Part shown: piece after piece, positions 41,911 through 57,867 of the stretch
Layout: each line of letters starts with the position of its first letter
Position numbering within the stretch: the first letter of the stretch is position 1
Origin: Halomonas binhaiensis
Lineage (GTDB): Bacteria > Pseudomonadota > Gammaproteobacteria > Pseudomonadales > Halomonadaceae
Reading direction: 5' to 3'
Assembly (NCBI RefSeq): GCF_008329985.2
Contig: NZ_CP038437.2
Span: 496,001-560,000 of the forward strand
Length of the DNA stretch: 64,000 nucleotides
Notes under the pieces: generated by a model
The model's database searches: none
What the model was told of the DNA's origin: nothing
What the model saw: the letters and a program-made list of their open reading frames with translations, nothing else
Position numbers and translations under genes: made by a program

Positions 41911-41921
41911 GCGCAAGCTCC

Positions 41922-42075: not shown

Positions 42076-42753
42076 CTACCTGAAATGAGCGGAAAGACCC
42101 TGTACAGGCCTGAGTGCCACAGAAGTTCCTGGCAGTGGCGTGCTGATTTCGAGCTCATCTCTGGTTTCGAGCTCAGGGCTGCGAATACAGAGATGAATGG
42201 TCAATTGCTCATCCTGATATTGCCAGACATGTATGGTGCCATTCGGAGCCAGCTCGTCGAGCATGGTCGCGATATCCGAGGAAAGCACGTGCGCAGGCCT
42301 TTTTCCTTCGCACCAGGCGAGTTTGAACAGCGCTTCATGCAGGGTCCAGGCCCGATAGAAAGCCTGCAATGGTTGGGTATCTTGGCGGATGGCAGTGCGT
42401 GTCTGCAGTGTGGGGAAAGCTTCGACCAGACGGTCGAGCCTGCGTACATGACGTCCAAGGGAACATTCAATGTCCAGCCCGATGGGCTGGTTGGACAGGG
42501 CGGCGATGACATGATCACGACGATGGCTCAGCCCCGGCCAGATGCCATTGGGCAAGTTATCGTGGTGTACCGGCCCATGGCCGCGCGGTGACCAGCCAGC
42601 CAGGGGACAGTCAATCTGCCACTCGGCCGCAAGCTGTGACAGCAGCTCGCGACCCAGGCGAGAGGCTCCGGCTCCTCTGGCTACTGGCCCGGTCCGTGCC
42701 AGGGCCAGCAGCAGGCGAGCGGGGCCCGGTTCATTCCAGTGTGACAACTTCAC
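42076..42753 (-). CDS. 4'-phosphopantetheinyl transferase superfamily protein
   Basis: About 225 residues. Transfers phosphopantetheine from CoA to the active Ser of carrier proteins, here presumably the two cluster ACPs. Family landmarks: LSHRRDHVIAALSNQPIGLDIECSLGR (Mg-binding Asp/Glu) and FYRAWTLHEALFKL (the W-x-x-KEA-like motif written WTLHEALFK). No in-frame ATG exists near the start; candidates are TTG 42774, GTG 42753 and TTG 42747, the last with AAGGG at good spacing. It overlaps the preceding gene and is the last gene of the aryl polyene operon. Confidence 0.82.
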   Translation of the reverse strand: MKLSHWNEPGPARLLLALARTGPVARGAGASRLGRELLSQLAAEWQIDCPLAGWSPRGHGPVHHDNLPNGIWPGLSHRRDHVIAALSNQPIGLDIECSLGRHVRRLDRLVEAFPTLQTRTAIRQDTQPLQAFYRAWTLHEALFKLAWCEGKRPAHVLSSDIATMLDELAPNGTIHVWQYQDEQLTIHLCIRSPELETRDELEISTPLPGTSVALRPVQGLSAHFR

Positions 42754-43177
42754 CCTTGAGCGAGACCCCGGCAATCAGGGCGCCGGCACGACATTCGTAT
42801 TCCGTTGCTGAAGGCCTGGCAATTTCATCGTAGTAGCTGGTGATGTTGATGACTGCATTGGCACCTTCCGTCTTGGCACGCTCCTGTATCGTAAGCAGGG
42901 CGGACAGCATGACCCAGCGGCAGGCTTCCTCATCGGTCTTGTTCAGGGCATTGGTCTTGCGGTATGTGACCACAGGGCCATGTTCCTGAACCACGTTGCC
43001 GGCGACGGCACTATCGCCGAAGACGAAGTGGATATTGGGGTCGAGCTTTTTCTTGGCCTCTGGCATGGCCAGTACATCCTGAATGGGCAGGAAATACTGC
43101 GTATCGCGGGCCTGAGCCATGGATGTCAGAACCATGCTGCTGAGCATCAAGGCCAGGCAAATCAGTCCTTTCTTCAT
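42731..43177 (-). CDS. Small secreted protein of the aryl polyene cluster
   Basis: 148 residues with a clear Sec signal peptide (MKKGLICLALMLSSMVLTS then MAQA, cleavage near 23). The mature part has two Cys (EEACRW and EYECRAG) and the sequence ERAKTEGANAVINITSYYD, recalling small periplasmic YbjQ/RcsF-like domains. Homologues occur beside phosphopantetheinyl transferase genes in aryl polyene clusters; some are misnamed excinuclease subunits. Function unknown. It precedes the transferase gene with a 23-44 base overlap, depending on that start. Confidence 0.72.
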   Translation of the reverse strand: MKKGLICLALMLSSMVLTSMAQARDTQYFLPIQDVLAMPEAKKKLDPNIHFVFGDSAVAGNVVQEHGPVVTYRKTNALNKTDEEACRWVMLSALLTIQERAKTEGANAVINITSYYDEIARPSATEYECRAGALIAGVSLKGEVVTLE

Positions 43178-43293: not shown

Positions 43294-44556
43294 TCATGGG
43301 CCCCAGCGCTGGAAGATCAGTGATGTATTGATACCGCCGAAGGCAAAGTTGTTGCTCATGACATATTCACAGTCGATGTGGCGGCCCTTGCCACAAAGGT
43401 AATCCAGTTCTGCGCATTTTGGATCGAGCGTATCCAGATTAGCGGTGGCGTGGAACCAGCCCTCACGCATCATCTCGATGGCGACCCAGGCTTCGAGTGC
43501 ACCGCAGGCCCCTAGAGTGTGACCGGTAAAACTCTTGAATGCACTGATCGGCTGTGCTTTTCCAAAGACGGCTTGTGTGGCTATGGATTCAGCAATATCG
43601 CCACGTTCCGTGGCTGTGCCATGGGCGCTGACATAGCTGATCTGCTCAGGGCACAACGCGGCATCGGCGAGTGCTTCGCGTATGGCGGCCTCCATCATGG
43701 CGGCATCTGGCTGCGTGACATGGCGACCATCGCTGTTGGTGGCAAACCCCACCAGTTCGGCATGGATCCTGGCTCCCCTGGCCAGAGCATGTTCGAGGTC
43801 CTCCAGGATCAGAGTTCCTGCCCCTTCTCCGATGACCAGACCATCTCGGTCAACATCGAAAGGACGAGGTGTCTTCTCGGGTTGGTCGTTGAGTGTGCTG
43901 GTTGCGAACAGGGTATCGAAGACGGCTGCCTCGGAGGCGGAAAGCTCTTCACAGCCGCCTGCAATCATGGCGGTCTGGCGACCGAAGCGAATGGCCTCGT
44001 AGGCATAGCCGATCCCCTGACTACCGGAAGTACAAGCACTGGAGGTGGTATGGATGCGTCCGCGAACACCAAGAAAAACCCCGATGTTCACTGGTGCGGT
44101 ATGCGCCATCATGCGGATATAGGAGTTGGCATTAAGCCCATCGGTGGACTTGTTGATCAACATGTTACCGAAGTCGGCCACCGCGTCAGGTTCTCCGGCG
44201 GAGGCGCCATAGGCGATGCCCATGCGACCGCTACCGGTCAACGCGCTGCCAAGCAGGCCGGCATCCTCCAGGGCCAGTTCACTGGCCCGGGTGGCCATGC
44301 GGGCTCCACGCCCCATGCTGCGCAAGGCCTTGCGGTGGTAATGATCGGGCAAGGAGAAGTCTTTCACCACTCCGGCGAGACGCGTGTTCAAGCCCTCGTA
44401 CTGTTCCCACTCGCCCATATGACAGATGCCGTTGATCCCCGCAGCGAGACGCTGGCGAATGCTTGGCCAGTCGTTGCCGATAGGCGAGAACCCCGCCATT
44501 CCGGTCACGACCACGCGTCGGCCCAGACCGTCGGGGCGCATGGCGTTGGTTGCCAT
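43294..44556 (-). CDS. apeR: Beta-ketoacyl-ACP synthase (ApeR-like)
   Basis: 420-residue FabF-type ketosynthase. Active-site C175 (TTSSACTSGSQG), H312 (SAHGTATERGD), K341 and H346 (KSFTGHTLGACG), and the NNFAFGGINTSL C-terminus are all present, so it is catalytically complete. In aryl polyene clusters this enzyme is the stand-alone ketosynthase after the ketoreductase gene. The start ATG 44556 shares a base with the ketoreductase stop (TGATG); a longer frame reads back into that gene and is rejected. Symbol assigned by order and type. Confidence 0.88.
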   Translation of the reverse strand: MATNAMRPDGLGRRVVVTGMAGFSPIGNDWPSIRQRLAAGINGICHMGEWEQYEGLNTRLAGVVKDFSLPDHYHRKALRSMGRGARMATRASELALEDAGLLGSALTGSGRMGIAYGASAGEPDAVADFGNMLINKSTDGLNANSYIRMMAHTAPVNIGVFLGVRGRIHTTSSACTSGSQGIGYAYEAIRFGRQTAMIAGGCEELSASEAAVFDTLFATSTLNDQPEKTPRPFDVDRDGLVIGEGAGTLILEDLEHALARGARIHAELVGFATNSDGRHVTQPDAAMMEAAIREALADAALCPEQISYVSAHGTATERGDIAESIATQAVFGKAQPISAFKSFTGHTLGACGALEAWVAIEMMREGWFHATANLDTLDPKCAELDYLCGKGRHIDCEYVMSNNFAFGGINTSLIFQRWGP

Positions 44557-45281
44557 CAGCACATACCTCCGTTGACCGCGATGACCTGGCGGGTGATGTA
44601 GCTTGCCTCGTGGGAACACAGGAAACTGACGGCAGCGGCGACTTCATCGGCGGTACCGGTGCGCTGCATGGGAATCATCTTGAGCGCTTCATCGCGAGCC
44701 AGGTCTTCTGTCATGTCAGTGTCGATCAATCCTGGCGCAACGGCATTGACGGTGATCCTGCGCTTGGCGAGTTCGATGGCCAATGCCTTCACTGCTCCGA
44801 TCAGGCCGGCCTTGGCGGCGCTGTAGTTGACCTGTCCACGGTTACCCATCAGACCGGAGACGGATGACATGACCACAATGCGCCCGGGTTTGCGACGACG
44901 TACCAATGGCATGGTGACGGGCTTGATCACGTTATAGAAGCCATTGAGGCCGGTATCGATGACTCCATCCCAGTCGGCATCGGACAACGCCGGGAAAGCG
45001 GCATCAGCGGTGATGCCGGCATTGCACACGACGCCGTAGTAAGCCCCATGCGTTTCGATGTCTGTTTCCAGCGTCTGGCGTGCATGCTCGCGGTCAGTCA
45101 CGTCAAAGCACAGAATGCGCACTTCACGGCCCAAGTGGCGAATGTCCTCGGCAACACGCTCGGCGGCATCCTTCTGTTGACGACAATGCAGCACGATATC
45201 GAAGCCGTCCTTTGCCAGGCGCAGAGCAATGGCACGGCCAATGCCTCGGCTGGAGCCGGTAACGAGAATGGTATCCCTCAT
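44556..45281 (-). CDS. apeQ: 3-oxoacyl-ACP reductase (ApeQ-like ketoreductase)
   Basis: 241-residue short-chain dehydrogenase of the FabG type. NADP motif TGSSRGIGRAIA at 8-19, NAG at about 89-91 (CNAGITADAAF), catalytic Ser in SSVSGLMGN and Tyr/Lys in VNYSAAKAG, then PGLIDTDMTEDL and a VNGGMC C-terminus. Reduces the beta-keto group during polyene extension. ATGA overlap with the dehydratase gene upstream. Confidence 0.92.
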   Translation of the reverse strand: MRDTILVTGSSRGIGRAIALRLAKDGFDIVLHCRQQKDAAERVAEDIRHLGREVRILCFDVTDREHARQTLETDIETHGAYYGVVCNAGITADAAFPALSDADWDGVIDTGLNGFYNVIKPVTMPLVRRRKPGRIVVMSSVSGLMGNRGQVNYSAAKAGLIGAVKALAIELAKRRITVNAVAPGLIDTDMTEDLARDEALKMIPMQRTGTADEVAAAVSFLCSHEASYITRQVIAVNGGMC

Positions 45282-45769
45282 GGTTGCTCCTTCAACATGG
45301 CATTCAGGGCATCTTCGGATTCGGGTTGAAACACATTGAGCAGAGCGCTGGCGACCTGGCCCTGAGCCGTGTGCAGCTCAGCCTGGAAGGCGCCCAGGCC
45401 ATTGTCGGCACGATAATCCAGTTGAATGGCGACTTCGACGGGCACACCAAAGGGAAAGGATGCGAGGTCACAGCGATAGCGCCGGGTGCCGAGCAGGAAG
45501 CCGATGCTGGGTCGCCGCCCCTGATCGGAGTTGTGGTGTCCTGACCAAGCGGCGATAGCCTGGGCCATCCACTCCAGGCCGACCCAGCCGGGGATTCCTT
45601 CGGAGGTTGCGAACAGGTCATCACGCTTCGGGGTAACTCGAGCGCGCAGATGTTCCTGTCCAACCTCCAGCAACTCATCCAGCAGGCACATGTCACCTTC
45701 GTGGGGCACCAGTGAGTCAATGGGCTGAGGACATGAATCTGCCTGGTCGGGAGTCGTATGGTGAATCAT
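45278..45769 (-). CDS. apeP: Hotdog-fold 3-hydroxyacyl-ACP dehydratase (ApeP-like)
   Basis: 163 residues. The hotdog dehydratase pattern LVPHEGDMCLLDELLEV near 23-39 (catalytic His) and GWVGLEWMAQAIAAWSG near 61-77 is that of ApeP/FabA-like enzymes from aryl polyene clusters. It would form the double bonds of the polyene. ATGA overlaps on both sides (with the ketosynthase before and ketoreductase after). Confidence 0.87.
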   Translation of the reverse strand: MIHHTTPDQADSCPQPIDSLVPHEGDMCLLDELLEVGQEHLRARVTPKRDDLFATSEGIPGWVGLEWMAQAIAAWSGHHNSDQGRRPSIGFLLGTRRYRCDLASFPFGVPVEVAIQLDYRADNGLGAFQAELHTAQGQVASALLNVFQPESEDALNAMLKEQP

Positions 45770-46923
45770 TGGCTACGTTCCATGAGCAGAGCAATGTTGT
45801 TGCCGCCAAAGGCAAAGGCATTGGACAGGGCGCGTTTCACATCGCACTGGCCACCATGGCTGTAGGTCAGGGCGGGCAGGGCCGGATCGGCCTCGTACAG
45901 TTGAGGCGGTAGTTGCCCGCGGTCGATGGCCAGCCAGCAGAAGGCTGCTTCCAGGGCACCACATGCCCCCAATGTGTGGCCTGTCAGGCTCTTGGTCGAG
46001 CTGCAGATCACGCCTTGAGGGAACACTTCGGCAACGGCCAGGGATTCCATTGCATCATTGAGCTTGGTGGCGGTGCCGTGCAGGTTGAGATAGTCGACCT
46101 GTGACGCCTGCACGCCAGCCATGTGCAGAGCCGCGAGCATGGCTTCGCGGGCACCGGATCCATCCGGCCGGGGGGCAGAAATATGATAGGCATCACTGGT
46201 TTCACCATAGCCGCTAAGCTGAATGCCGCCGCTTTCTCCACTGACCAGGAATAGCGCGGCCCCTTCACCGAGATTGATGCCTCTCCTATCGGCGGCAAAG
46301 GGACGGCAGGGAGCGTCGCTGACCGCCTCCAGCGAGGCGAAGCCATTGACGGTCAAGCGGCACAGTGAGTCGGCTCCTCCCGCGATGGCCGCATCGCACT
46401 GGCCGCTGGCAATCAGGCGGCGGGCACTGGCCAGGGCCTTGGCGCTGGACGTGCAGGCCGTGGACAGGGTGTAGGCAGGGCCATCAAGGTTCAGGTACCA
46501 GGCAACGAAATCCGCAGGGGCACCGATTTCATGGCGATAGTATTGGAAGTCTTCTGGCCACTCGCCGTCCCTGCCGCGTTGTGAAAGCGCATCTTCGGTT
46601 TCACCGATGCCTGACGTGCTGGTGCCCAGGATGACCGCAATACGCGCATCAGGATTGGCGCTGCGCCAGTCTTCCAGAGTGGGAGCCAGGCGCTCCAGGG
46701 CTGCCGCAAGCAAGCGGTTGTTACGTGAACGGTACTTGCTGGGCCATCCGCTGTCATCTGGAAGAGCTGTGTCAACGCTCCCCACTGGCAAAGGTCTGCC
46801 CGGTGTGAAGGCATCACTCGTACGCAGGCCTGCCTGTCCGTTGAACAGGCGAGTGGCAATGGTGTCCAGTTGGTCGCCAAGTGGGCAGACCAGAGCTGGT
46901 GGATAGAGGCGGCAATGGGTCAT
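45766..46923 (-). CDS. apeO: Beta-ketoacyl-ACP synthase (ApeO-like)
   Basis: 385 residues. Active-site C157 (STACTSSAKAL), His in NLHGTATKLND, Lys/His in KSLTGHTLGACG and an NAFAFGGNN C-terminal motif, so catalytic residues are intact. In the type II aryl polyene PKS the ApeO-type ketosynthase pairs with the chain-length-factor-like ApeC, encoded at the other end of this operon. Start ATG 46923 forms ATGA with the lipoprotein gene; ATG 46935 adds four residues and cannot be excluded. Symbol by order and type. Confidence 0.87.
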   Translation of the reverse strand: MTHCRLYPPALVCPLGDQLDTIATRLFNGQAGLRTSDAFTPGRPLPVGSVDTALPDDSGWPSKYRSRNNRLLAAALERLAPTLEDWRSANPDARIAVILGTSTSGIGETEDALSQRGRDGEWPEDFQYYRHEIGAPADFVAWYLNLDGPAYTLSTACTSSAKALASARRLIASGQCDAAIAGGADSLCRLTVNGFASLEAVSDAPCRPFAADRRGINLGEGAALFLVSGESGGIQLSGYGETSDAYHISAPRPDGSGAREAMLAALHMAGVQASQVDYLNLHGTATKLNDAMESLAVAEVFPQGVICSSTKSLTGHTLGACGALEAAFCWLAIDRGQLPPQLYEADPALPALTYSHGGQCDVKRALSNAFAFGGNNIALLMERSQ

Positions 46924-47639
46924 GGTGGAGGGCATGCTGTGGTGCTGTTGTCTCGGGTTTTCGTACCTTGTGTTTCCATACCTTGTGCTGCGGTGTTCTG
47001 GGCTGCTGTCGGTGCAATGTAGAGCCGATATCCTGCCTCGATATCATCGATGACACGGCATTCCGGTGTGGTATCAATAAGTGCCACCAGGCGACCTCGG
47101 TAGTAGATCCTGCGTTGCTGGGCCGCGGTTTCCAATGCCCAGCCTGTGCCGTTAAAGGCATCTTGTAAGTCACCTTCCGGCCACAGGCTCCAGGTCAGTC
47201 GGCTAGCCAACCAGTCGGCACTGAAGGGGGGATCGAACACCGCATCAGGCAAAAAACGGCTGCCGTGCTCATCACGAACCAGGGTCAGAAGTCGCTGGCC
47301 CTGCGAGCTCAGCAAGGCCAGTTGCAACTGTTGATGGTCGTGGCGGATGACACCGAGAAGCGTATCGCGCTTGTCAGCGTGCTCAAAGGTCAGCCGTTGG
47401 ACGCTGGGTGTTGCGGGTGGCAGCGTAGCCAGGCTCGGTGCTGGTGATGTCGGCGGCATGTGACTGCAAGCACTCAGAGCCAGTAGCAGGATGCCACTGA
47501 GAAGGCCGTGGAGCAGGGAGTGTTTCTGCTCTTGCCGACGAGGCTCCTGACCATCCGAAGCTGTCGCGTATAGGATCGGGTTGCGCAGGGGCATGTTGCT
47601 CTGGTTTTCAGGGCTCAGGTATACAGGGCTCTGGTTCAT
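46920..47639 (-). CDS. DUF3261-family lipoprotein of the aryl polyene cluster
   Basis: About 239 residues. A hydrophobic segment ends in the lipobox LLLALSAC, unusually far from the N-terminus (about residue 57), so the true start may be further in. The mature domain has RLTFEHADKRDTLLGVIRHDHQQLQLALLSSQGQRLLTL (in part) and a C-terminal YRLYIAP, fitting DUF3261. Homologues sit in aryl polyene clusters next to the LolA/MMPL pair, so a role in outer-membrane delivery is inferred. The N-terminal 15 residues are encoded by four imperfect 15-bp repeats. Confidence 0.75.
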   Translation of the reverse strand: MNQSPVYLSPENQSNMPLRNPILYATASDGQEPRRQEQKHSLLHGLLSGILLLALSACSHMPPTSPAPSLATLPPATPSVQRLTFEHADKRDTLLGVIRHDHQQLQLALLSSQGQRLLTLVRDEHGSRFLPDAVFDPPFSADWLASRLTWSLWPEGDLQDAFNGTGWALETAAQQRRIYYRGRLVALIDTTPECRVIDDIEAGYRLYIAPTAAQNTAAQGMETQGTKTRDNSTTACPPP

Positions 47640-47657
47640 ATGGCTCAGTTCCCCTGG
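47598..47657 (-). repeat. Four imperfect 15-bp units across the flavoprotein/lipoprotein gene junction
   Basis: Plus-strand units start GCTCTGG, GCTCAGG, GCTCTGG and GCTCAGT at 47598, 47613, 47628 and 47643; they cover the 3' end of the flavoprotein gene and the start of the lipoprotein gene, where they encode NQSP-like pentads. Confidence 0.75.
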
Positions 47658-48889
47658 TCCAGGTAACAATGTTCGGCCAGGCTATCCAGGCGCCGTTTGC
47701 TGGCGCTGACAAAAGGGTTGTCCTGATCCCAAGCATAACCGGCCAGTACCGAGGCAATCATCTGTCGGATTCTTTCTGGCTGGCGGTCGTGAAAGATGAT
47801 GCGTTGTAAACGCTCGTCGTACCAGGCATCGACAAAAGCGCGGAAGGTGGCAATGCCTTGTCGCAAGGGACGCTCAAAGGATGTGTCCCAGTCGATGGCC
47901 TGTCCTTCCAGCTGTTGCTTGACCAGAGGCGCTGCGCGCAAGGCGGAATCCAGGGCGATGGTGACGCCTGAGGAGAATACCGGATCGAGGAACTCGCCTG
48001 CGTTACCGAGAATGGCGAAACCTGGGCCATGCAGTCGCTCGATGTCAGCAGAATAACCGCCGATGCGCTGGACCTCGCGCCTAGGCTGGGCATGGTTCAA
48101 CAGACGAGAGAAACGCGGCTCCTGGCGAAGCAGGTTCCACAATCGCTGGTCGTCGCTGTCGCCAGCGGCATCGGCTCGGTCTGGCGCCGTCACCACGCCG
48201 ACCGAAGCTTGCCCGGAACGGAAGGGAATCAGCCAATACCAGGTCGTGGCGTCCTGGGGATGAATCCCGATCAGGATCTTTTCGCGGTCGTGTTCCGCGG
48301 CCTCGATATGATCCTCGACGTGGGTGAATAGTGCTGTACGTGGCGCTAGAGAAGAAGGCCGGTCAAGCTTCTCCAGGCGAGCCAGGACACGCCCATAGCC
48401 GCTGGCATCGAGCACGAAGCGAGCATCCAGTTCATGGCGTCTGCCTTGCTCATCTTCAAGCTGCAGACGCGGTCGCTGGGGATGTGGGTGAAAGCCGGTA
48501 ACGCTGACGCCAAAGTGAACCTGAGCGCCGGCGCGACGAGCTCCCTCGATCAGGCGCTGATCGAAGTCGGCCCGTTCCACCTGCCAGGTGGTGCCTGGCC
48601 CGGGAGAAAACTTGTCGCGGAAGTCGATGGCAGCATAACGCGTGCGATGACAGAAGGCGGCACCGTTCTTGGCCTGGAATTCCCCGGCTTGTGCAGATTC
48701 GAGCAATCCACACTGTTCCAGATAGACCATGCACTGGGGCAGCAGGCTCTCGCCAATGCTGAAACGAGGGAAATGCTGGCGCTCCAATACCTGCACCGAC
48801 CAGCCGTCGCGTGCCAACCAGGCTGCAGCTGCCGCCCCGGCAGGGCCGGCACCAATGATCGCGATGTCAGTAGTCTCAACGATGTCCAT
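47645..48889 (-). CDS. FAD-dependent oxidoreductase with flavin-halogenase signatures
   Basis: 414 residues. GAGPAG at 13-18 binds FAD, IGESLLP at 45-51 follows, Lys74 in FQAKNGAAF aligns with the position of the catalytic Lys of flavin halogenases, and W217-Y-W-L-I-P222 matches the halogenase-specific WxWxIP motif. NAGEFLDPVFSSGVTIA is the second FAD motif. This combination is typical of flavin-dependent halogenases acting on aromatic or carrier-bound substrates. The cluster makes an aryl polyene, so ring halogenation is plausible (xanthomonadins are brominated). A non-halogenating FAD oxidoreductase of the same superfamily remains possible. Start ATG 48889 overlaps the exporter gene by 14 bases. 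Confidence 0.75.
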   Translation of the reverse strand: MDIVETTDIAIIGAGPAGAAAAAWLARDGWSVQVLERQHFPRFSIGESLLPQCMVYLEQCGLLESAQAGEFQAKNGAAFCHRTRYAAIDFRDKFSPGPGTTWQVERADFDQRLIEGARRAGAQVHFGVSVTGFHPHPQRPRLQLEDEQGRRHELDARFVLDASGYGRVLARLEKLDRPSSLAPRTALFTHVEDHIEAAEHDREKILIGIHPQDATTWYWLIPFRSGQASVGVVTAPDRADAAGDSDDQRLWNLLRQEPRFSRLLNHAQPRREVQRIGGYSADIERLHGPGFAILGNAGEFLDPVFSSGVTIALDSALRAAPLVKQQLEGQAIDWDTSFERPLRQGIATFRAFVDAWYDERLQRIIFHDRQPERIRQMIASVLAGYAWDQDNPFVSASKRRLDSLAEHCYLDQGN

Positions 48890-51149
48890 GAGAAGTCTTC
48901 TCCGTGTGAGAGACGCCAAGTGATGTACCTGATCGAGAGAAGGGCACCAGGCACCAGGTGGCGGTCAGGCCGATCAGGCAGGTGGTGCCAAGAAAGTGCA
49001 GTGCAGGAGTGGCACTGAAGGCCAGCAGTCCAAAAGCCAGCAGGCTGGAGGCACAGGATAGCGTGATGGCGAGCCAGGCCGCAGGGTCGTCGGGGTGCTC
49101 AGTACTGAAGATGCCGGCGTCGAGACCAATTCCGAGTACCAGCAGAAGCCCCAGCAGGTGAAAGAGCGACAGGCCAATCTGCAAGGCAGCGAAGATCCCC
49201 AATGTCAGTATCACTGCACCAACAGGGGGTAACAGCACCCGCCAGGCATTCAGTCGGTAGCGCCAAAGGAAGGCAACAGCCAGCACGAACATGGCCAGGG
49301 CCAGCCAACGGATGATACTTGTGCTCAGTTGCTCCAGCTGGGAAGAAAGGGCGCTGACGCGGTCACGATATAAGGTGCCGGGTGCGCGGGACAGAGCCTG
49401 GACCTTGGCGAGCCCCTGATTATCGAGGTCCCCCAGCAGAATGATGGCACTGGGGGTGCCATTCAGAGTGAACCATAACGGGCGCAGAGTCTCTCCAGCG
49501 GCATCGTCAAGCCATATATCCGGCGTCAATGTCGGAACCTTTTCCAGTGTTGCCCAGATACGACCCGCTTGTTCTGAAGGTAGTCCTGCCTGTTGCAGCA
49601 CAGATGGCAGAGCACTCTGATAGCGTTGTGTGACAGTTTGCAGGTTGCTTTCCTGGGTGGCTCCTGAGGGTACGACCTGGGCCAGGTGACGGTAGCTGGA
49701 TAGATGTCCTTGATGATGCAGGCGGGATAATTCGACATCCATGGTCTCCAGGCGCTGCAGCAGAGTTTCGGGAGAGTCCGCTTGTAGAACCAGGTAACGG
49801 AACCCGGCTGGCTGGCCGAGCAATGCCTGTGCGCGTTGTTGCTGATCGATCAGTGTCTGGGGAGAGCTGTTCAACTGACGCAGGTCGTGGCGCGAGTGAC
49901 CAGCCAGAATGGCCAGCAGCAATGCTGCCAGCAGTACCAGCAGCATCAGAACATAGGCTTTGCGATGATGAGGACCCAGGCGCAGACCATTCAGGCGCAG
50001 GGCAATGGTCTGGGTAGCGGGATGGCTACGGAGCGGGATGCAGGGCAAGCATAGGCGAACGCTCAACCAGGCACCGAACAGGCCACAGGCGGTGAAGGTC
50101 GCCATCTGGCGCAGGCCAGGAATGGGCGGCGCCATCAGTACCAGGTAAGCACACAAGCTGGAGACAAGGCTGAGAAACAGGCCTGGCCACAGCGTAGAAA
50201 GTGGGCGTTGTGGATGCAGTTGACGCATACATTGCAAATGCAGTGCGTAATCCACCGAGATACCGATCAGGCTGGCACCAAAGGCCAGGGTAATCAGGTT
50301 CAGGGAGCCGAACAATGTCCAGGTAATGGCGCTGGCAAACAATAGTCCGCTGGCAATGGGCACCAGCAGTGTTGCCATCAGGGCCGGACGGCGAAAGACC
50401 AGCCACAGCATCAGCAGTACGCCGAGCAGGGAACCGACACCGATGGTGGTGACTTCCTGCTGGGCCTGCCGAGCGCCGGCGGCGGCGTGGTACACCAGGC
50501 CTGAACGCAGCAAGGTGAGATCAGGGTGATCGGCAGTAAAGCGATCCAATGTCTCGTTCAGGCGGCGTTGCAGTTCCATGTCGTAGGGACTGGAGGCCAG
50601 GGTGGCACTGACCAGCCGCCATGTCGCCTTTGGTGTGGTGACGGTCGGGCCACCATCGCGCCATTCCACGTGGGAGGCAAGACGGGCATTGAGCCAGGCA
50701 TCGAGCAGGCCGAAGGGGTCCTGAACAAGGTCTCCAGCGACTCCTGGAGTGAACAGGCGAGACAGGCCACGCTTGACCCAGTCCTCCGTAGTGGCCTGTG
50801 CCAGTGACGGAGCCAATAGTCGATATCGGTAGGGCGCCAGAAGAAGATCCGGGCGAGGAGGAGATTGCTCGTCAAGACGGGCAACCACGCCACTCTCTTG
50901 CAGGTGCTTGCGTAGCTCCTGGGTGGCAGCAATATCATCGGGGCCTGTGATCAGTATCAGGAAGCGCTGCTCGAGGGCGTCTGCAAGACGCTGGTCAGTG
51001 TGCTGAAACAGAGTGTTGTTGGCAGATTCTGGCAGCAGGACCGTGATGCGGGTATCCAGGGGAGCGCCACGCCAAAGCTGGATCCCGAGCAGGACAGCAC
51101 TGGCCAGGACCACGCCCAACCATAGCAGCAGGCCCCGGGAACGGATCAC
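48876..51149 (-). CDS. MMPL/RND-type exporter (COG4258) of the aryl polyene cluster
   Basis: 757 residues. Two copies of the RND half-unit: helix 1, periplasmic loop (about 30-220) and five helices (about 225-380), then helix 7, a second loop (about 410-600) and the last helices (about 610-735). FGASLIGISVDYALHLQCM holds the family Asp-Tyr motif. Such proteins sit next to LolA-like genes in aryl polyene clusters and are thought to move the lipid-linked pigment towards the outer membrane. ATGA overlap with the LolA-type gene. Confidence 0.87.
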   Translation of the reverse strand: MIRSRGLLLWLGVVLASAVLLGIQLWRGAPLDTRITVLLPESANNTLFQHTDQRLADALEQRFLILITGPDDIAATQELRKHLQESGVVARLDEQSPPRPDLLLAPYRYRLLAPSLAQATTEDWVKRGLSRLFTPGVAGDLVQDPFGLLDAWLNARLASHVEWRDGGPTVTTPKATWRLVSATLASSPYDMELQRRLNETLDRFTADHPDLTLLRSGLVYHAAAGARQAQQEVTTIGVGSLLGVLLMLWLVFRRPALMATLLVPIASGLLFASAITWTLFGSLNLITLAFGASLIGISVDYALHLQCMRQLHPQRPLSTLWPGLFLSLVSSLCAYLVLMAPPIPGLRQMATFTACGLFGAWLSVRLCLPCIPLRSHPATQTIALRLNGLRLGPHHRKAYVLMLLVLLAALLLAILAGHSRHDLRQLNSSPQTLIDQQQRAQALLGQPAGFRYLVLQADSPETLLQRLETMDVELSRLHHQGHLSSYRHLAQVVPSGATQESNLQTVTQRYQSALPSVLQQAGLPSEQAGRIWATLEKVPTLTPDIWLDDAAGETLRPLWFTLNGTPSAIILLGDLDNQGLAKVQALSRAPGTLYRDRVSALSSQLEQLSTSIIRWLALAMFVLAVAFLWRYRLNAWRVLLPPVGAVILTLGIFAALQIGLSLFHLLGLLLVLGIGLDAGIFSTEHPDDPAAWLAITLSCASSLLAFGLLAFSATPALHFLGTTCLIGLTATWCLVPFSRSGTSLGVSHTEKTSHGHR

Positions 51150-51796
51150 TGATAGCGCCCCTGCGCTTCCTGCGGGGTATCACTTGCATCATTGGCGGGT
51201 TGTTCGCCGCTCCCCTGGCCAATGACGTCAGAGCAGGATACGGCACTCAACTCCAGCATCAGCCTGTCACCGTTGCGGAAGTCCAGGTGCAGCTGGTCGA
51301 TGCGGTCGGCGCCATTGAGCTGAATCTGCTCAAGGCGTTCGGATACTACGTCATCGGAGGGAGTAAGCGTCGTGTTCCACTGCTTGATACTGCCCTGGAG
51401 GTCGATGCTGAAATGCTGCTCGAGGCTGGCCCAGTTGCCCTGGAGCAGACCGGAAAGTACAGGCAGCATGGTCTTGAGCCCAGGCGGCAGGTCGGGGTTA
51501 TCTGGCGTCAGTACGACGCGATCGTTGACGGGGGCGAGTGTCTGCCAGATGAACCCTTGTGGCTGGCGTTGAAAGTAGCCCTGGCTGTCCACCTGGGTTC
51601 CCAGGTCCGCCAACCAGCGCTGCTGCTGAAACTCGACACATTCCGGGGCTTTTTCACTGAGCCGCTGGCTGAGTTCGGCAAGGTCGAGAGAGGCATTGGC
51701 CCCAGAGCCTGTACCGACATTGGGAGCTGTTTCGGTATCAGAAGCTGTCGCTGCAAGCGATACCGTCAGCAGCAGGGCGAGAAGTGAATAACGCAT
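51146..51796 (-). CDS. LolA-like outer-membrane carrier protein
   Basis: 216 residues. Signal peptide MRYSLLALLLTVSLAATA (cleavage near 18-19) then a LolA-like domain with LADLGTQVDSQGYFQRQPQGFIWQTLAP and LQGSIKQWNTTLTPSDDVV stretches (each partly conserved in LolA). Probably shuttles the hydrophobic aryl polyene lipid through the periplasm with the MMPL exporter. Start ATG 51796 shares a base with the thioesterase stop (TGATG); the longer frame is rejected. Confidence 0.82.
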   Translation of the reverse strand: MRYSLLALLLTVSLAATASDTETAPNVGTGSGANASLDLAELSQRLSEKAPECVEFQQQRWLADLGTQVDSQGYFQRQPQGFIWQTLAPVNDRVVLTPDNPDLPPGLKTMLPVLSGLLQGNWASLEQHFSIDLQGSIKQWNTTLTPSDDVVSERLEQIQLNGADRIDQLHLDFRNGDRLMLELSAVSCSDVIGQGSGEQPANDASDTPQEAQGRYQ

Positions 51797-52236
51797 CAAT
51801 GATTGGCCTCCTGCCAGGTGACAAGCCTGTCGATGAGCACTTGAGGAGAGGCAAGTTGCATCTCCCCCGTGGCCATTTCCACGGCAACCTGCACGGTCCA
51901 TGCCCGGGTCAGGCGGCGCCGGGTCGTTGCACAACGGATGGTGTAGTCGATCTTCATGCGGTGCTCCCATTCGCTGAGTCGGGCCTCGATGACAAGGTGT
52001 TGGCCGAAACGCGCCGGAGCGGCATAGCGTAGTCTCATATCGATGATCGGCCAGGCATAGCCTGATTCGCACATCTGCGGATAGTTGTAGTTGATGGTAT
52101 CCAGCAGCTTGCAGCGGGCGATTTCCAGGTAGCGGACATAATGGCCATGCCAGGCGACCTGCATCATGTCGACGTCGTGAAAGGGGATCTCGATGTCGGC
52201 TTCAATCTGTGGCAGGGGGCGATCATCCGGCGTCAT
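51796..52236 (-). CDS. Acyl-CoA/ACP thioesterase, 4-hydroxybenzoyl-CoA thioesterase family
   Basis: 146-residue hotdog protein. The catalytic pattern IPFHDVDMMQVAWHGHYVRYLEIAR (about 17-41; catalytic Asp in DVDMMQV) is that of YbgC/4HB-CoA thioesterases. It may release the chain or edit misloaded ACPs. Overlaps the ammonia-lyase 3' end by 14 bases. Confidence 0.88.
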   Translation of the reverse strand: MTPDDRPLPQIEADIEIPFHDVDMMQVAWHGHYVRYLEIARCKLLDTINYNYPQMCESGYAWPIIDMRLRYAAPARFGQHLVIEARLSEWEHRMKIDYTIRCATTRRRLTRAWTVQVAVEMATGEMQLASPQVLIDRLVTWQEANH

Positions 52237-53866
52237 ACAGGCTCCAATGGCGCTTGCGAATCAGTGAACACAGCAGAGTGAGATCCTGGTCCAGGGCGCG
52301 GTCTTCAAGTACAGGGTCAATATTCTGGCGAATGGCATCGATGAAGTCGCCGAGGGCCTGGGGCACGGCCTCGCCGTTCTCTTCGACACTGCCTTCGACA
52401 TTCTCTGCAGTACTTCCTTCGGCACTCCTTGTCGCACTCGCGGCGACGCTGTCCGTATGCGAAGCGTTCAACTGGCTGCGGAGCTCTACGCCCTGGCAGG
52501 CGGCATGCAAGGTCGCTGCGGCGACTTGCTCGACCAGTGTCAGTACGCGCAGAGCATCGCGAGCAGCGATGGTGCCCATGCTGACCTTGTCCTGATTGTG
52601 GCACTCGGTGGAGCGGGAAAACACACTGGCAGGCATGGTCAGCTTCAGCGCTTCGGCGGTCCATGCCGAGGCGCCGATCTGAACGGCCTTGTAGCCATGG
52701 TTGAGAGGGAGTCGCTCAGGACTGGCACCGCTCAGGTTGCTTGGCAAGCCATGGTTGTAGCGAGTATCGACCAAGAGAGCCAACTGGCGGTCGAGCAGGT
52801 CAGCAAGATTGGCCGCTGCTTGCTTCAGACTGTCCATGACGAAGGCCACGTGGCCGCCATAGAAGTGTCCGCCGTGCATCACCTTGCCGACATCGGGATC
52901 AATCAGTGGATTGTCGTTGGCGCTGTTGAGTTCATTGGTAAGGAACTGGCGCCACCAGGGCAGAGCATCTTCCACGACCCCGATGACATGCGGAGCGCAG
53001 CGCGTCGAATAACGATCCTGCAGACGCGATGAGTTGCGAGGGGTACTGGGAGCATGCAAGTCCTGGCGCAGCCGCTCGGCGACACACTGCTGACCCGGAT
53101 GAGGTTTGGCGGCAAACAGGTCGGTATCGAAGTGGTAAGGGTTGCCATTCAGTGCCTGGACCGAAAGTGCGGTGATACGCGTGCTCAGAAGGGTCAGATA
53201 GGAACAGCGGGAAAAGGCCAGGATGCCCAGAGCGGTCATCACTGCAGTGCCATTCATCAATGCCAGCCCTTCCTTGGGCTTGAGCCGATAGGGCGTCATG
53301 TGTCGCTCGGCCAGCGCTTCGGCGGCAGGGCGGCGAACACCGCGATCGAAGACATCGCGTTCACCACATAGCACGGCGGCCAGATAGGACAAGGGCGTCA
53401 GGTCGCCACTGGCACCCACGGAGCCCTCTTCGGGAATGACTGGCAGCACGTCTTCCTGCAGTAGCCACACCAGGCGCTCGAGCAGCTCCATGCTGATCCC
53501 TGAAACGCCCTGGCACAGAGAAACCAGGCGCACCAGAATCACTGCCCGTGCGGCCTCTGCTGCAAGTACCTGGCCCTGGCCACAGCCATGAAAGGTATAG
53601 AGATGACGCGGCAGACTATCGATATCGTCCATGCTCACCGGGCGCGTGCAGGCATCGCCATAGCCAGTGGTGACGCCATAGACCACACCGTCTTCTTCCA
53701 GCAGACGCTCAAGGAATACCTGGCCGCGAGTAATGCGTTCGCAGAATTCCGGTGCTGTCGAGAGCGCTACTTTGCGACGTCCCTCGGCCACGGACAGGAT
53801 ATCTTCGAGAGATACTGTCGAGCCGTCGAGGACAAGAGGAGAAGTGCTGGCAGATGGTTGAGTCAT
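52223..53866 (-). CDS. Aromatic amino-acid ammonia-lyase (HAL/PAL/TAL family) of the aryl polyene cluster
   Basis: 547 residues. The MIO prosthetic group forms from A152-S153-G154 in EEGSVGASGDLTPLSY; Y63 (YGVTTGYG) and Tyr/Arg residues of the active site (RYNHGLPSNLSG, FSRSTECHNQDKVS) are present. Histidine, phenylalanine and tyrosine lyases share this scaffold. Near the substrate selector the sequence is RHLYTFHGCG, with His93, unlike the LVLSHAAG of true HutH as I recall it. No hutU/I/G genes are near, while aryl-ACP ligase genes are, so a (hydroxy)cinnamate-forming role is favoured. Start ATG 53866 overlaps the acyltransferase by ATGA. Residues ~495-520 are a Ser/Ala/Glu-rich insert. Confidence 0.85.
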   Translation of the reverse strand: MTQPSASTSPLVLDGSTVSLEDILSVAEGRRKVALSTAPEFCERITRGQVFLERLLEEDGVVYGVTTGYGDACTRPVSMDDIDSLPRHLYTFHGCGQGQVLAAEAARAVILVRLVSLCQGVSGISMELLERLVWLLQEDVLPVIPEEGSVGASGDLTPLSYLAAVLCGERDVFDRGVRRPAAEALAERHMTPYRLKPKEGLALMNGTAVMTALGILAFSRCSYLTLLSTRITALSVQALNGNPYHFDTDLFAAKPHPGQQCVAERLRQDLHAPSTPRNSSRLQDRYSTRCAPHVIGVVEDALPWWRQFLTNELNSANDNPLIDPDVGKVMHGGHFYGGHVAFVMDSLKQAAANLADLLDRQLALLVDTRYNHGLPSNLSGASPERLPLNHGYKAVQIGASAWTAEALKLTMPASVFSRSTECHNQDKVSMGTIAARDALRVLTLVEQVAAATLHAACQGVELRSQLNASHTDSVAASATRSAEGSTAENVEGSVEENGEAVPQALGDFIDAIRQNIDPVLEDRALDQDLTLLCSLIRKRHWSLYDAG

Positions 53867-54801
53867 GGCGGAGATATCTCGGGAGGTTGCCAGAACGGAA
53901 AGAAGTTGAACCACTGTAATGGGTGCCGGCGGACGTGACTCTCGAGTTGCGCCACATAGCGGAACATGGCGTCGTCGAGCCAAGCCTGGCGGTGCTTGCG
54001 CGGCAAGGATGACGTGTCATCGAAAGGCTCGAAGTCGACTCGGTAGGCATCACCATCGCGCACGCAGGCCAGCAGGTAGACAGGGCAGCGCAGCAAAGCG
54101 GCCAGCAGGAATGGACCTTCCGGGAATGCTGCAGGAGCGTTGAGAAAGTCCAGCCAGCGATAGCGTCCTAGTCCAGGAGGGACCCGGTCGGCAGCGACGA
54201 CGACAAAGCCGCCTGCGCGGATCTTGGCGTCCAGCAATTGAGCGGTGGCGGGAGTGATGTCGTTGACCTCGATGATGCTGGGACCTCGACGCCCCGTTGC
54301 ACGGCCCAGTAGCTCATTGAACTTGCGAGCATTGCGACTGTGCATGATGACACTGACATCGACGCTCGAATCCTGTTCATTCAGAGCGTTGACTACGTCG
54401 AGGTTGCCATGATGAGCAACCAGTACCAGGCCGCCCGGTCCCCGATGTTCTCCCTTGGCGAGAGCTTCGGAGAAATGGCGTACGCCGTCACCCTGAAGTT
54501 CATCGGCCGGAAAGGCACCACTCCAGGCGCCGACCTTGTCCATCAGGCAGCGGCCAAAACTGAGGAAATGGCTGAAACTGCGCTGGTGCCAGGCCAGGGG
54601 GCTTTGGGACAGGCTGGGGTCGAGGCGTGCCAGGTAATCGCGAGAGGCATGGCGGGCAACGGCATGAGTGGTGTAATACCACAGGATCACTGGCCACAGG
54701 ACAAGCTTGAAAGGCCACTCTCCCAGTCGCCGCAAGTGCACCATGAGCAGCATCCCGGTCAGGGTGCCGCGCTCACCGACACGCGCCCATGAAGACTTCA
54801 T
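53863..54801 (-). CDS. LpxL/HtrB-like lipid acyltransferase
   Basis: 312 residues. N-terminal hydrophobic segment (about 20-40), the catalytic His in VLVAHHGNLDVVNAL (HxxxxD variant HHGNLD), RVPPGLGRYRWLDFLNAPAAFPEGPFLLAALL in the second half. Similar to lauroyl/myristoyl acyltransferases of lipid A synthesis; in aryl polyene clusters it is thought to build the lipid anchor. Start ATG 54801 by ATGA overlap with the glycosyltransferase gene. Confidence 0.85.
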   Translation of the reverse strand: MKSSWARVGERGTLTGMLLMVHLRRLGEWPFKLVLWPVILWYYTTHAVARHASRDYLARLDPSLSQSPLAWHQRSFSHFLSFGRCLMDKVGAWSGAFPADELQGDGVRHFSEALAKGEHRGPGGLVLVAHHGNLDVVNALNEQDSSVDVSVIMHSRNARKFNELLGRATGRRGPSIIEVNDITPATAQLLDAKIRAGGFVVVAADRVPPGLGRYRWLDFLNAPAAFPEGPFLLAALLRCPVYLLACVRDGDAYRVDFEPFDDTSSLPRKHRQAWLDDAMFRYVAQLESHVRRHPLQWFNFFPFWQPPEISPP

Positions 54802-55568
54802 GATGCTACCCAATGTCGTTTCAGCAGACGAGGGAGGCGCGGCAGCATGGCGAAGAACAGGCGTGCGTGCATGCGGCTGATCTGCAGGTTGTCGCGCCAT
54901 ACATCAAAGTGGCTGATGCCGTCTTCTGGATAATGCACTCTCACCGGCAAGTTCTCTATGTCGCCTCCGCTCCAGTACCAGCGCACCAGGACTTCGGTAT
55001 CGAATGTCATGCGCTCTCCACAGGGATGCTGCTCCAGCAAGGCATTGGCCTGTACTACCGGATAGAGCCGGACGCCACACATAGTGTCGCGAATATGGCA
55101 GGACAGTGTATTGATCCAGACCCAGACATGGGTAGCGTAGCGCCCATAGTGGCGGGCTTTGGGCACGCTCTCGTCATAGCAGGCGTAACCTGCCAAAAGG
55201 GTTTGCGGTGAGTGGGCCATGCTTTCGATAAAGGCAGGCAGGTCGTCAGCATGATGCTGGCCATCGGCATCGACCTGGAGAGCGTGGGTATATCCTAGCC
55301 GCTGCGCCTCTGCCAGGCCCGAACGCACGGCGGCTCCCTTGCCCCGATTGCTGGCATGACGCACGAGGTGATGTCCTTGTGCAGCAAGGCGTTCCAGTTC
55401 ATGACGACAAGGCGCGCTGCAGCCATCGTCGACCAGAATCACCGGCAGGTCCATGGCGCTCAGGCGATCGCACACCGTGGCGATGGTCTCGGGGTGATCG
55501 TAGACCGGTACCAGGGCGCAAGGATGCAGCTCAGTCATGGGGAGCTCAGTCATGGGTGGCTCAGTCAT
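54798..55568 (-). CDS. Family 2 glycosyltransferase (DPM1-like)
   Basis: About 256 residues. GT-A fold: CALVPVYDHPETIATV, VILVDDGCSA, ASNRGKGAAVRSGLAEA and the DXD-type ALQVDADGQH near 105-114. The family includes polyprenyl-phosphate sugar transferases; here it may attach a sugar to the pigment lipid. The N-terminus starts with MTEPP/MTELP/MTELH pentads from a 15-bp triplicate, so four ATG codons are possible; 55568 is preferred (AGGA 8 bases upstream). Confidence 0.85.
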   Translation of the reverse strand: MTEPPMTELPMTELHPCALVPVYDHPETIATVCDRLSAMDLPVILVDDGCSAPCRHELERLAAQGHHLVRHASNRGKGAAVRSGLAEAQRLGYTHALQVDADGQHHADDLPAFIESMAHSPQTLLAGYACYDESVPKARHYGRYATHVWVWINTLSCHIRDTMCGVRLYPVVQANALLEQHPCGERMTFDTEVLVRWYWSGGDIENLPVRVHYPEDGISHFDVWRDNLQISRMHARLFFAMLPRLPRLLKRHWVAS

Positions 55569-55574
55569 GAGGGG
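55530..55574 (-). repeat. 15-bp tandem triplicate at the glycosyltransferase start
   Basis: Plus-strand units begin CTCAGTCATGGGGAG, CTCAGTCATGGGTGG and CTCAGTCATGAGGGG. Each unit carries an in-frame start codon, so copy number could alter where translation begins. Confidence 0.9.
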
Positions 55575-57273
55575 CATCCTGAGTGAACACCACTCGTCCC
55601 GATGCATGACGTCCGTGGTGAGAGTCATAATGGAAGGCAATGCCATCGTCACGCCGTTCCAGATGCAGACTGAAGCGCAGACCAGGACGCAGTATCTTCT
55701 GGAATTTCACCCGCTCGATCGCGCAGAAAGTCCCGATATCGCCGAAATGTTCCGTGGCCAGCTCAATGGCCCACTGAACCAGCACGACACCGGGGACGAG
55801 AGGAAGGCGCGGGAAGTGGCCTGCGAGATAGCGCAGGCGACTGGGAACTTCTAGATGGATCACGACGATGCCTGCGCTGCCTGATACTTCCCCAAGCCAG
55901 CGAGGCTGACGGTCGTCGTCGAGATCGGCAAAGCAGCGTGAGAGCAAGGCGTTGTCGTGCTTGCCCTGGGAATTGACAGGCAGCACCTCGACAAAGCGCC
56001 AGTAGCGGGGAATCGCCACGTTATCCAGTTCATCGTCAAGGATATTGCGCAGACGCTCGACGAGGCCGCGTCGCATCTCATGATCACGAGGGATCGACTC
56101 AGGCTCCATGGCGACGACGATAGCGAGACGGCCATCGCGCTCGGCAAGGGGCAGGCAGCGTGCTGTGCGAATGCCTTCCTGCAGGCTGAGGCAATTTTCG
56201 ATCTGGGTCAGGGATATACGCTTCCCTCCCACCTTGGCCACGCGATCGGCTCGTCCCAGCAAGTGAAAGCCATCGTCCAGGGGAGCGGCCCGATCACTCT
56301 GTAGCCACCAATGTTCAGGGTGTTCCAGAAAGGTGGAGCGGACTTGCAGCTTTCCCTGCTCAATTCTCCAGTCGACACAGGGAAAGGCTGTCCAGCATGC
56401 CGACTGTTGCTGGCGACGCCAGGCAACACCGCCGGTCTCGGTACTGCCATAGATTTCGATGACGGGGGCCTGCAGTAGCTGTTCACTGCGTAAGGCATCT
56501 GCCTCGCTCAGTGGCGCGCCCGAGGAAAACACACGTCGGATAATGGCGGGCCAGTGCAGATGCTCGGGGAGGCGTGATAGCTGTGCCGGCGATGATACCA
56601 CTACGGCTGCCAGCCGGGCCTTCTGAGCATCCATGAGCCTTTCTGCCAGCGTTTCGGGGTAACGACTGTCTCTCGCGCTGAATGGCACACCATGGCATAG
56701 CGGATGGAGAATACCGGCAAGCAGGCCATAGATGTGCTGATGGCTGACCTGAGAGACTACCGCACAGCCCTCGAGAGGCCATAGCTTGGCATGCTGGTCG
56801 AGTTCGTCCTCCAACTGCTGGAAACGCTTCGGCTGCATGACTGGCTCGCCCGTGGAGCCAGAGGTATACAGGACCACGGCCTCACGCTGGGCTTGCAGCG
56901 GAAGAGGCGCCGGTGTTGCGTGTTGTTGCCTGGTGGCGTCCTGGGAAAGTGGTGCCTGTACGGAAGCCAGGGCTGGGTATGGCGGGATGATACCGTCAAC
57001 CATATTCCCCAGGCGGCGCAGGGTCGCGGGCTTGTTGTCGCCTGGCAATACCGCGCTGCGTCCGCTTTCCCACAATGCCAGCAGGGCCGCAGTAAATTCC
57101 ATGGGATCTGTTTGAAACAGTAGCCAACGTCCCCCGGCCTGGGATGACAGCCAGCTACGCCATGCGGCGATCCGGGGGGCTAGAGTTTGTGCCGAGCACC
57201 AGTCTGTCGGCTGTGAGTTGGACTCACCCACAGCACGCTGCCAAGGCGACCCGGTGAGAGCAAGGTAATTCAC
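55561..57273 (-). CDS. apeH: Aryl-ACP ligase fused to an ApeI-like dehydratase domain
   Basis: 570 residues. Part 1 (about 1-450) is an AMP-forming ligase: P-loop YTSGSTGEP, YGSTETGG, GRADRVAKVGGKR and the catalytic Lys in VNSQGKHD. It should activate the aryl starter (cinnamate or benzoate type) and load it on an ACP, as ApeH does. Part 2 (about 465-570) has YLAGHFPRLPLVPGVVLVQWA and ERVKFQKILRPG, a FabZ-like hotdog domain equivalent to stand-alone ApeI. The fusion saves a separate apeI gene. ATGA overlap with the membrane protein gene. Confidence 0.87.
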   Translation of the reverse strand: MNYLALTGSPWQRAVGESNSQPTDWCSAQTLAPRIAAWRSWLSSQAGGRWLLFQTDPMEFTAALLALWESGRSAVLPGDNKPATLRRLGNMVDGIIPPYPALASVQAPLSQDATRQQHATPAPLPLQAQREAVVLYTSGSTGEPVMQPKRFQQLEDELDQHAKLWPLEGCAVVSQVSHQHIYGLLAGILHPLCHGVPFSARDSRYPETLAERLMDAQKARLAAVVVSSPAQLSRLPEHLHWPAIIRRVFSSGAPLSEADALRSEQLLQAPVIEIYGSTETGGVAWRRQQQSACWTAFPCVDWRIEQGKLQVRSTFLEHPEHWWLQSDRAAPLDDGFHLLGRADRVAKVGGKRISLTQIENCLSLQEGIRTARCLPLAERDGRLAIVVAMEPESIPRDHEMRRGLVERLRNILDDELDNVAIPRYWRFVEVLPVNSQGKHDNALLSRCFADLDDDRQPRWLGEVSGSAGIVVIHLEVPSRLRYLAGHFPRLPLVPGVVLVQWAIELATEHFGDIGTFCAIERVKFQKILRPGLRFSLHLERRDDGIAFHYDSHHGRHASGRVVFTQDAPHD

Positions 57274-57812
57274 TGGGTTCTACTCCGTAGTCGGCGGCGG
57301 CAACACCACTCGATGACAAACATCAGGGCCATCAGTACGTAGCTGATGGCGCCATTGTACAGGGTCCAGACGGCCAGGCTGGCATAGTAGGCAGTCCAGG
57401 CCGCTATGGCTCCGTTGACAAGAAAGAACACGCACCAGGCCTGGGTTACTTTACGGGTGTAGCGCACTCCCGACGGTGGCAGGTCAGGCTCCTTCAAGCG
57501 TGCGATGCGCTCGATGATAGGGGGGCCTTGCCACAGGCTGAAGGAGAAGGTTGCCAACATGATGGCATTGACGGCGACAGGATACCCGCGCAACCCCCAT
57601 TCTGCCTTTCCTGCCAGGCCAATGGTGATGAGGGCCATGGCGGCCAACACAGCCAGACCTCGGGCCTGAGGCAGGCGCCAGGCGATAAGTGCGCTACCCA
57701 CGGCCAACAAGGGCCAGGGGCCCAGGCTATCCTCAAGCCACCACACCGCGAATGGCCAGGCAGCGGCAAGCAAGGCAGTTGCTGTCGTGACCAGGAAAGT
57801 GGTGGGGCGCAT
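57270..57812 (-). CDS. COG4648-type inner-membrane protein of the aryl polyene cluster
   Basis: 180 residues with five or six hydrophobic helices. PPIIERIARLKEPDLPPSGVRYTRKVTQAWCVFFLVNG (in part) near 100-135 is typical of this small family, found almost only next to ACP and ligase genes of aryl polyene loci (ApeG by order). Function unknown. Start ATG 57812 chosen for AAGGA 6 bases upstream and family length. Confidence 0.82.
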   Translation of the reverse strand: MRPTTFLVTTATALLAAAWPFAVWWLEDSLGPWPLLAVGSALIAWRLPQARGLAVLAAMALITIGLAGKAEWGLRGYPVAVNAIMLATFSFSLWQGPPIIERIARLKEPDLPPSGVRYTRKVTQAWCVFFLVNGAIAAWTAYYASLAVWTLYNGAISYVLMALMFVIEWCCRRRLRSRTQ

Positions 57813-57867
57813 GGAAGGTCCTTCTGTGCCGGCACAATGGATAGCATCCATTCGATAGATTATCGGT

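Follow-up and report, generated by a model that had tools for sequence, protein, structure and literature searches.

In Xanthomonas, aryl polyene (APE) clusters include a named halogenase gene and the pigment is brominated; the Lysobacter cluster lacks a halogenase gene and its pigment shows no bromine pattern, and among xanthomonadins bromination and methylation are both variable (PMC3691225). A chorismatase (XanB2) is expected in xanthomonadin-type clusters (PMC3949708). Ring methylation and/or chlorination distinguishes one flexirubin from another, and the ammonia-lyase of the Chitinophaga pinensis flexirubin cluster starts the APE from tyrosine; the pigment of this organism, C43H54O4, lacks Cl (PMC3992019). 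We analysed a 64,000-nt stretch of Halomonas binhaiensis DNA (contig NZ_CP038437.2, positions 496,001 to 560,000; hereafter the window), in which a halogenase-like gene lies inside an E. coli-type APE cluster; APEs are yellow pigments of the membrane.

The cluster spans 59839 to 42076, with all genes on the minus strand (Table 1). From ApeC to the last beta-ketoacyl-acyl carrier protein synthase (KS), it shares the gene order of the E. coli APE cluster, insertions aside (PMC8253772). Two genes are inserted relative to E. coli Nissle, whose cluster has neither: an ammonia-lyase before the thioesterase, and the halogenase-like gene between the exporter and DUF3261 genes. Conversely, ApeA and the methyltransferase ApeB are present in the E. 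coli cluster but missing from the window, and the host genome held no ApeB homologue at E <= 1e-10. The APE cluster proposed by an earlier, sequence-only reading is real: acyl carrier proteins (ACPs), KSs, an ApeP-like protein, FabG, a LolA-like carrier, a DUF3261 protein, a 4'-phosphopantetheinyl transferase (PPTase) and other genes were confirmed.

A GGAG lies 10 nt before the ATG (48889) of the halogenase-like open reading frame (ORF). This ORF shares 14 nt with the tail of the exporter ORF, which ends at 48876, and the DUF3261 gene comes next downstream. Its coordinates and every residue named by the sequence-only reading were found in the translation, namely GAGPAG, GESLLP, Lys74 (K74, within FQAKNGAAF) and WYWLIP. 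A further motif absent from that reading, FLDPVFSSG, matches the FxxPxxSxG form of Fx.Px.Sx.G, a signature said to line the tunnel of halogenases (PMC8407142, PMC12871659, PMC10377541); BrvH and three X. campestris flavin-dependent halogenases (FDHs) have Ser or Asn in place of its Gly (PMC7336383). Shuffling the protein 20,000 times produced WxWxIP in 9 cases and the pair WxWxIP plus FxxPxxSxG in none. In 96 locus proteins with at least 41% identity, W217, W219, I221, P222, F300, D302, P303, S306 and G308 were invariant. K74 was Lys in all 95 covered rows, one row having a cut start and hence a gap at N-terminal sites. The full motif set was found in 121/121 proteins (P0001 and 120 relatives among the matches listed). 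In RadH, K74, D325 and F328 are essential residues (PMC10377541).

On the basis of motifs, profile ranking and modelled fold, membership of the window protein in the FDH family, as the sequence-only reading had suggested, is close to certain. Trp_halogenase (PF04820) scored 67.9 bits against a Pfam cut-off of 21, and FAD_binding_3 also matched. The best NCBIfam models were CmlS (NF033113) and QhpG (NF049967, 122.8 bits); the QhpG monooxygenase equivalog was ruled out by its curated cut-off of 240. When a profile of 37 relatives was compared with solved structures, PDB 3nix, a Cytophaga hutchinsonii flavoprotein whose entry title gives no function, came top with 481.7 bits. Thirteen halogenase sequences ranked next (226.7 to 101.2 bits), above an archaeal geranylgeranyl reductase (62.6 bits). 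The modelled fold was nearer to halogenases than to other flavoproteins, and in both sequence and fold most halogenases outranked hydroxylases. Alignments of Mpy16, ChlB4, PltA and Bmp2, carrier-protein-type FDHs with 25-30% identity to the window protein, place K74, WxWxIP and F.DP.FSSG on the same residues; K74 was matched through sequence alignment, the structural comparison giving aligned ranges and no per-residue pairs. The substrates of these four enzymes are pyrrolyl or polyketide, and the enzymes are not known from APE clusters. In the single-sequence search, PltA, Mpy16 and ChlB4 aligned into the C-terminal part (to 386-402) and the RadH, CndH and CmlS alignments stopped at 351-360; by structure, RadH reached 405.

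Within the host genome, PF04820 matched two stretches of the window gene and nothing else. QhpG exceeded its cut-off in none of 143 genomes, and other FAD_binding_3 proteins of the host genome replaced it as negative control. GES, WxWxIP and FxxPxxSxG were all absent from the six best of these (L196-L200, L202/L203; from 26 match rows), a comparison confined to these three motifs; L199 has an F.DP somewhere.

Among 369 genomes of the host's class, 59 matched at E <= 1e-20. Seventeen of these had at least 41% identity, the next being at 35%; we call the lineage of the window gene clade A. The clade-A gene lay inside APE clusters in 15 of the 17 genomes; in one genome (G249) the contig carries a five-gene part of the cluster, with the lyase about 58 kb away. 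The contigs of the remaining two (G123, G238) showed no APE gene; the neighbours there are a patatin-like lipoprotein and DsbB, joined in G238 by HslUV. The gene was present in 66 of 121 genomes of the host's own family. H. litopenaei and H. cupida (L002, L004) also have the cluster. In named genomes we examined the best 80 of 186 confirmed loci: all had at least one other APE gene, 78 had at least five, and 74 had a lyase. The gene mostly adjoins the exporter gene, and its named relatives are commonly labelled 'NAD(P)/FAD-dependent oxidoreductase'. In a plasmid collection, relatives near 50% identity occurred in records of Pseudoalteromonas, Acinetobacter, Cupriavidus, Caballeronia and Burkholderia, and the APE cluster itself was seen in one record each of the first three. 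The Acinetobacter baumannii record (L193 1262-18570; labelled plasmid, 1.02 Mb) has the same cluster with lyase and halogenase. A record of Neisseria gonorrhoeae 2022NG-0076 (L211 9915-11111; labelled plasmid, 2.17 Mb) holds a clade-A relative split into three pieces and two reading frames. Other APE genes are absent within 10 kb, and this copy is an orphan and apparently broken remnant.

A near-exclusion between the clade-A gene and ApeB was observed. With E. coli ApeB as query, 25 of the 369 class genomes gave a match, which reached 40% identity or more in 17; these 17 and the 17 clade-A genomes overlapped in one (G162), where the two genes are on different contigs. ApeB was found in none of 45 of the 80 named genomes (a picked sample, L001-L030 and 15 more) and in none of the 121 family genomes (E <= 1e-20). 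An APE-type lyase was present in 16 class genomes (at least 56% identity, the next at 41%), of which nine had clade A, two only the second halogenase lineage described below (clade B) and five only ApeB. In this set the clade-B FDH of G234 and the ApeB of G063 are on other contigs, and the ApeB of G288 is 22 kb away. The hypergeometric chance of no overlap was 0.005 for the 16 lyase genomes, a value that ignores kinship. In a FabG tree the clade-A FDH and ApeB labels interleaved with four changes, and starred branches force at least two for either label alone; this is in keeping with repeated exchange of the two genes, the support of a single-gene tree being weak. Ring halogenation and ring C-methylation could tentatively be viewed as interchangeable tailoring modules of E. 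coli-type APE clusters, with clade A replacing ApeB, although we put this at somewhat under an even chance.

At the loci examined, class matches below 36% identity belong to a different type of APE cluster. Twenty-one of the 45 match rows under 41% identity were examined with their flanks. Twenty loci (L113-L132) all showed at least one other APE-like gene; the twenty-first (L169) had only exporter- and COG4648-like matches around the gene. At L126, the only clade-B locus for which every gene was scanned, a chorismatase of the FkbO/Hyg5 family lies next to the halogenase. From this one locus we name clade B xanthomonadin-type, and it presumably holds the Xanthomonas enzyme. The full motif set was found in 25 of 26 unique clade-B proteins, the miss being L169 (the alignment has 34 rows, eight from genomes present twice), and the catalytic-Lys position was invariant in the covered rows of clades A and B.

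In a 65-sequence FDH tree, clade A and the 3nix group lay on one side of a branch (100/100) and clade B on another (100/99). This tree contained five PDB sequences, was built without RadH, CndH, CmlS, L169 and the named Xanthomonas halogenases, and gave a long-branch warning for Bmp2. Membership of the window enzyme in clade B was rejected by these separate supported branches. A joint clade A+B was not rejected (p 0.571, approximately unbiased test), and both clades may descend from one recruitment. The xanthomonadin analogy drawn by the sequence-only reading is one of function: clade B likewise comprises FDHs with all motifs inside APE clusters, but it is a separate clade, about 29-35% identical. 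On this tree, the window enzyme is probably not simply a xanthomonadin-type halogenase. The bromide-rich habitat invoked by the same reading adds little, because Pseudomonas, Acinetobacter and Cupriavidus have the same gene in their APE clusters.

The 3nix group is the sister group of clade A in the tree. All motifs were present in 119 of 120 listed 3nix relatives, the sole miss (P0138) being a partial protein. Two motif-complete relatives without an APE gene on their contigs (L167 1807-3042, L168 2559-3797) group with the 3nix family in a further tree; their neighbours are a patatin-like lipoprotein and DsbB, and in L168 also HslUV. On the Aureispira anguillae plasmid pAUEa (L191 1-12074), a fused MMPL/acyltransferase/methyltransferase gene lies near an AMP-binding protein and two FAD oxidoreductases, one of which is a 3nix-type halogenase relative; the locus is possibly another pigment or lipid cluster.

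The window enzyme likely halogenates, and we infer its activity, halide, substrate, position and timing as follows. It would be a FADH2-dependent halogenase of the two-component kind, and its role would be to modify the aryl head of an E. coli-type polyene. FADH2 would come from a host flavin reductase, O2 would give the flavin C4a-hydroperoxide, and attack by chloride or bromide would yield hypohalous acid (HOX). HOX would pass through a tunnel lined by FLDPVFSSG to Lys74, from which the halogen would be delivered to a carbon of the ring, ortho to the phenol OH, in a 4-hydroxyphenyl head, with the WYWLIP strand holding the substrate off the flavin. Such a halogen would stand in for the ring methyl group that the E. 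coli pigment gains through ApeB. Because the nearest solved halogenases act on carrier-bound aromatics, the head is probably attacked as an ACP thioester.

The aryl head is most likely tyrosine-derived through the cluster ammonia-lyase, with 4-coumarate as the putative starter. At what we take to be its two selectivity motifs, the lyase has FHGCG and NQDKVSM. These sites resemble the mixed pattern of C. pinensis FlxA, which is like histidine ammonia-lyase at motif 1 and like tyrosine/phenylalanine ammonia-lyase at motif 2 and prefers tyrosine 1010-fold over phenylalanine (PMC3992019). The FlxA equivalog (NF053541) was ruled out for the window lyase (312.6 bits; curated cut-off, 700).

The aryl head of the cluster's polyene is in our view the best reading of the enzyme's target, and a fairly probable one. 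Several results weigh against it. The CmlS equivalog was ruled out (135.5 bits against a curated cut-off of 900), CmlS ranked among or below non-halogenases in the fold comparison, and five more halogenase sequences (5wgr-5wgz) scored about 52 bits, under the archaeal reductase. We know of no tested function in the 3nix group. The relatives in G123 and G238 and the non-brominated Azoarcus pigment, both described below, count against it too. The cluster genes scanned include no flavin reductase, and the genome was not searched for one. A lyase match was missing at six of the 80 named loci (L017, L023, L024, L061 and, on short or cut contigs, L031 and L064) and in the Cupriavidus metallidurans cluster (L190); strict lyase-halogenase coupling was rejected as a defining link on these counts. 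For 38 ApeP clusters the hypergeometric chance of no ApeB/FDH overlap was 0.067, which also ignores kinship and is weak alone. The ApeB of G063, the clade-B FDH of G234 and the lyase of G249 were not within 30 kb of ApeP on one contig. Clade B breaks the exclusion: one contig of G196 carries an ApeB relative and, within 14 kb of it, a clade-B FDH, and weak ApeB-like matches (25-28%) lie near the clade-B FDH in G213 and G314. The G196 case would fit xanthomonadins, because both bromination and methylation vary there. The literature searched, mostly open-access, held no report describing what such a cluster makes and none of a halogenated aryl polyene from one.

The enzyme might be a genuine halogenase with another target, such as the polyene chain or a free phenol made by the cell, or might be silent under most conditions; we consider this unlikely. 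In its favour, the 3nix group keeps the motifs, as do relatives in G123 and G238 (42-43% identical) that have no APE gene on their contigs (4.9 and 11.4 kb), G238 having an ApeP-like match on another contig. Azoarcus BH72 has the 'halogenase' gene arcA, yet its arcuflavin is non-brominated (PMC3949708), so a halogenase gene in an APE cluster does not imply a halogenated pigment. Against it stand the APE clusters that surround the gene in 15 of 17 class genomes, the APE genes beside it at all of the best 80 named loci, the usual position next to the exporter, and the rarity of a head-group methyltransferase in the same genome. An improbable alternative is a flavin monooxygenase with a halogenase fold that hydroxylates the aryl head or the polyene: the examined relatives do not vary at Lys74, WxWxIP or FxxPxxSxG, a role in preventing monooxygenation has been suggested for WxWxIP (PMC8407142), QhpG scores well short of its cut-off, and the sequence and fold rankings place most halogenases above hydroxylases. 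A reductase or dehydrogenase of the geranylgeranyl reductase superfamily is very improbable: TIGR02032 did score 107.9 bits and the oxidoreductase label is frequent, but that score is below the cut-off of 158.8, the archaeal reductase ranks under 13 halogenase sequences, and the halogenase motifs are invariant.

For the favoured reading, halogenation of the aryl head, a halogenated product of the window's APE cluster is a sound prediction from sequence. Two points are new: the rarity of ApeB beside the gene, and a lineage separate from that of the clade-B halogenases. Together they tie a distinct halogenase lineage to the E. coli-type cluster and to an absent head-group methyltransferase. Clade A is common to Halomonas, Pseudomonas, Pseudoalteromonas, Acinetobacter and Cupriavidus; if the exchange of halogenation for methylation proposed above is true, a large share of a pigment family that is among the commonest in bacteria would consist of chlorinated or brominated aryl polyenes that have so far escaped notice. 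The tie between lineage and cluster turns a vague oxidoreductase label into a precise prediction that is cheap to test by mass spectrometry, and the enzyme would add phenol halogenases from halophiles as biocatalysts.

Table 1. Halogenase-like gene, its motifs and the other genes of the APE cluster (window positions)
Feature	Coordinates	Strand	Basis
FDH-like protein (clade A), 414 aa	47645..48889	-	motifs, profile ranking, fold
GAGPAG, residues 13-18, FAD-binding GxGxxG	48836..48853	-	translation and alignment
GESLLP, residues 46-51	48737..48754	-	translation and alignment
Lys74 codon, catalytic-Lys position of FDHs, end of model strand 72-74	48668..48670	-	alignment and model
WYWLIP, residues 217-222, WxWxIP motif, own strand 217-222 in model	48224..48241	-	alignment and model
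FLDPVFSSG, residues 300-308, Fx.Px.Sx.G halogenase motif	47966..47992	-	alignment
ApeC-like KS chain-length factor (PF13723)	59177..59839	-	PF13723 match and E. coli order
Lysophospholipid acyltransferase (ApeD-like)	58386..59234	-	profile match and E. coli order
Acyl carrier protein 1	58145..58417	-	
Acyl carrier protein 2	57868..58155	-	
COG4648-like membrane protein (ApeG-like), start uncertain	57270..57836	-	position relative to E. coli; no Pfam match
Acyl-ACP synthetase (AMP-ligase) fused to ApeI-like dehydratase	55561..57273	-	
Glycosyltransferase family 2	54798..55652	-	
Acyltransferase (Lip_A_acyltrans)	53863..54900	-	
Aromatic amino acid ammonia-lyase, 4-methylideneimidazole-5-one (MIO) motif ASGDL, start uncertain, predicted Tyr/Phe type	52223..53983	-	
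Thioesterase (4HBT)	51796..52236	-	
LolA-like carrier, coordinates of the listed ORF, real start probably further downstream	51146..52072	-	
MMPL/RND-like exporter (ApeM-like), 757 aa	48876..51149	-	E. coli position; no Pfam match; weak NCBIfam RND/HpnN matches
DUF3261 LolB-like lipoprotein, ATG 47639	46920..47639	-	
Beta-ketoacyl-ACP synthase (ApeO-like)	45766..46935	-	
ApeP-like dehydratase	45278..45769	-	
FabG2-type ketoreductase (ApeQ-like)	44556..45281	-	
Beta-ketoacyl-ACP synthase (ApeR-like)	43294..44619	-	
Small protein in the slot where other APE clusters have a gene labelled 'excinuclease'	42731..43177	-	position only
4'-phosphopantetheinyl transferase	42076..42774	-	

The small protein between the last KS and the PPTase has a signal-peptide-like start and no Pfam match; its 'excinuclease' counterparts are in L192 and L193. 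Adjoining the cluster, 36731-41916 holds catabolic genes that, from their translations, appear to encode an M20-like amidohydrolase, two GntR-like regulators, an SMP-30-like lactonase and an enolase-superfamily sugar-acid dehydratase.
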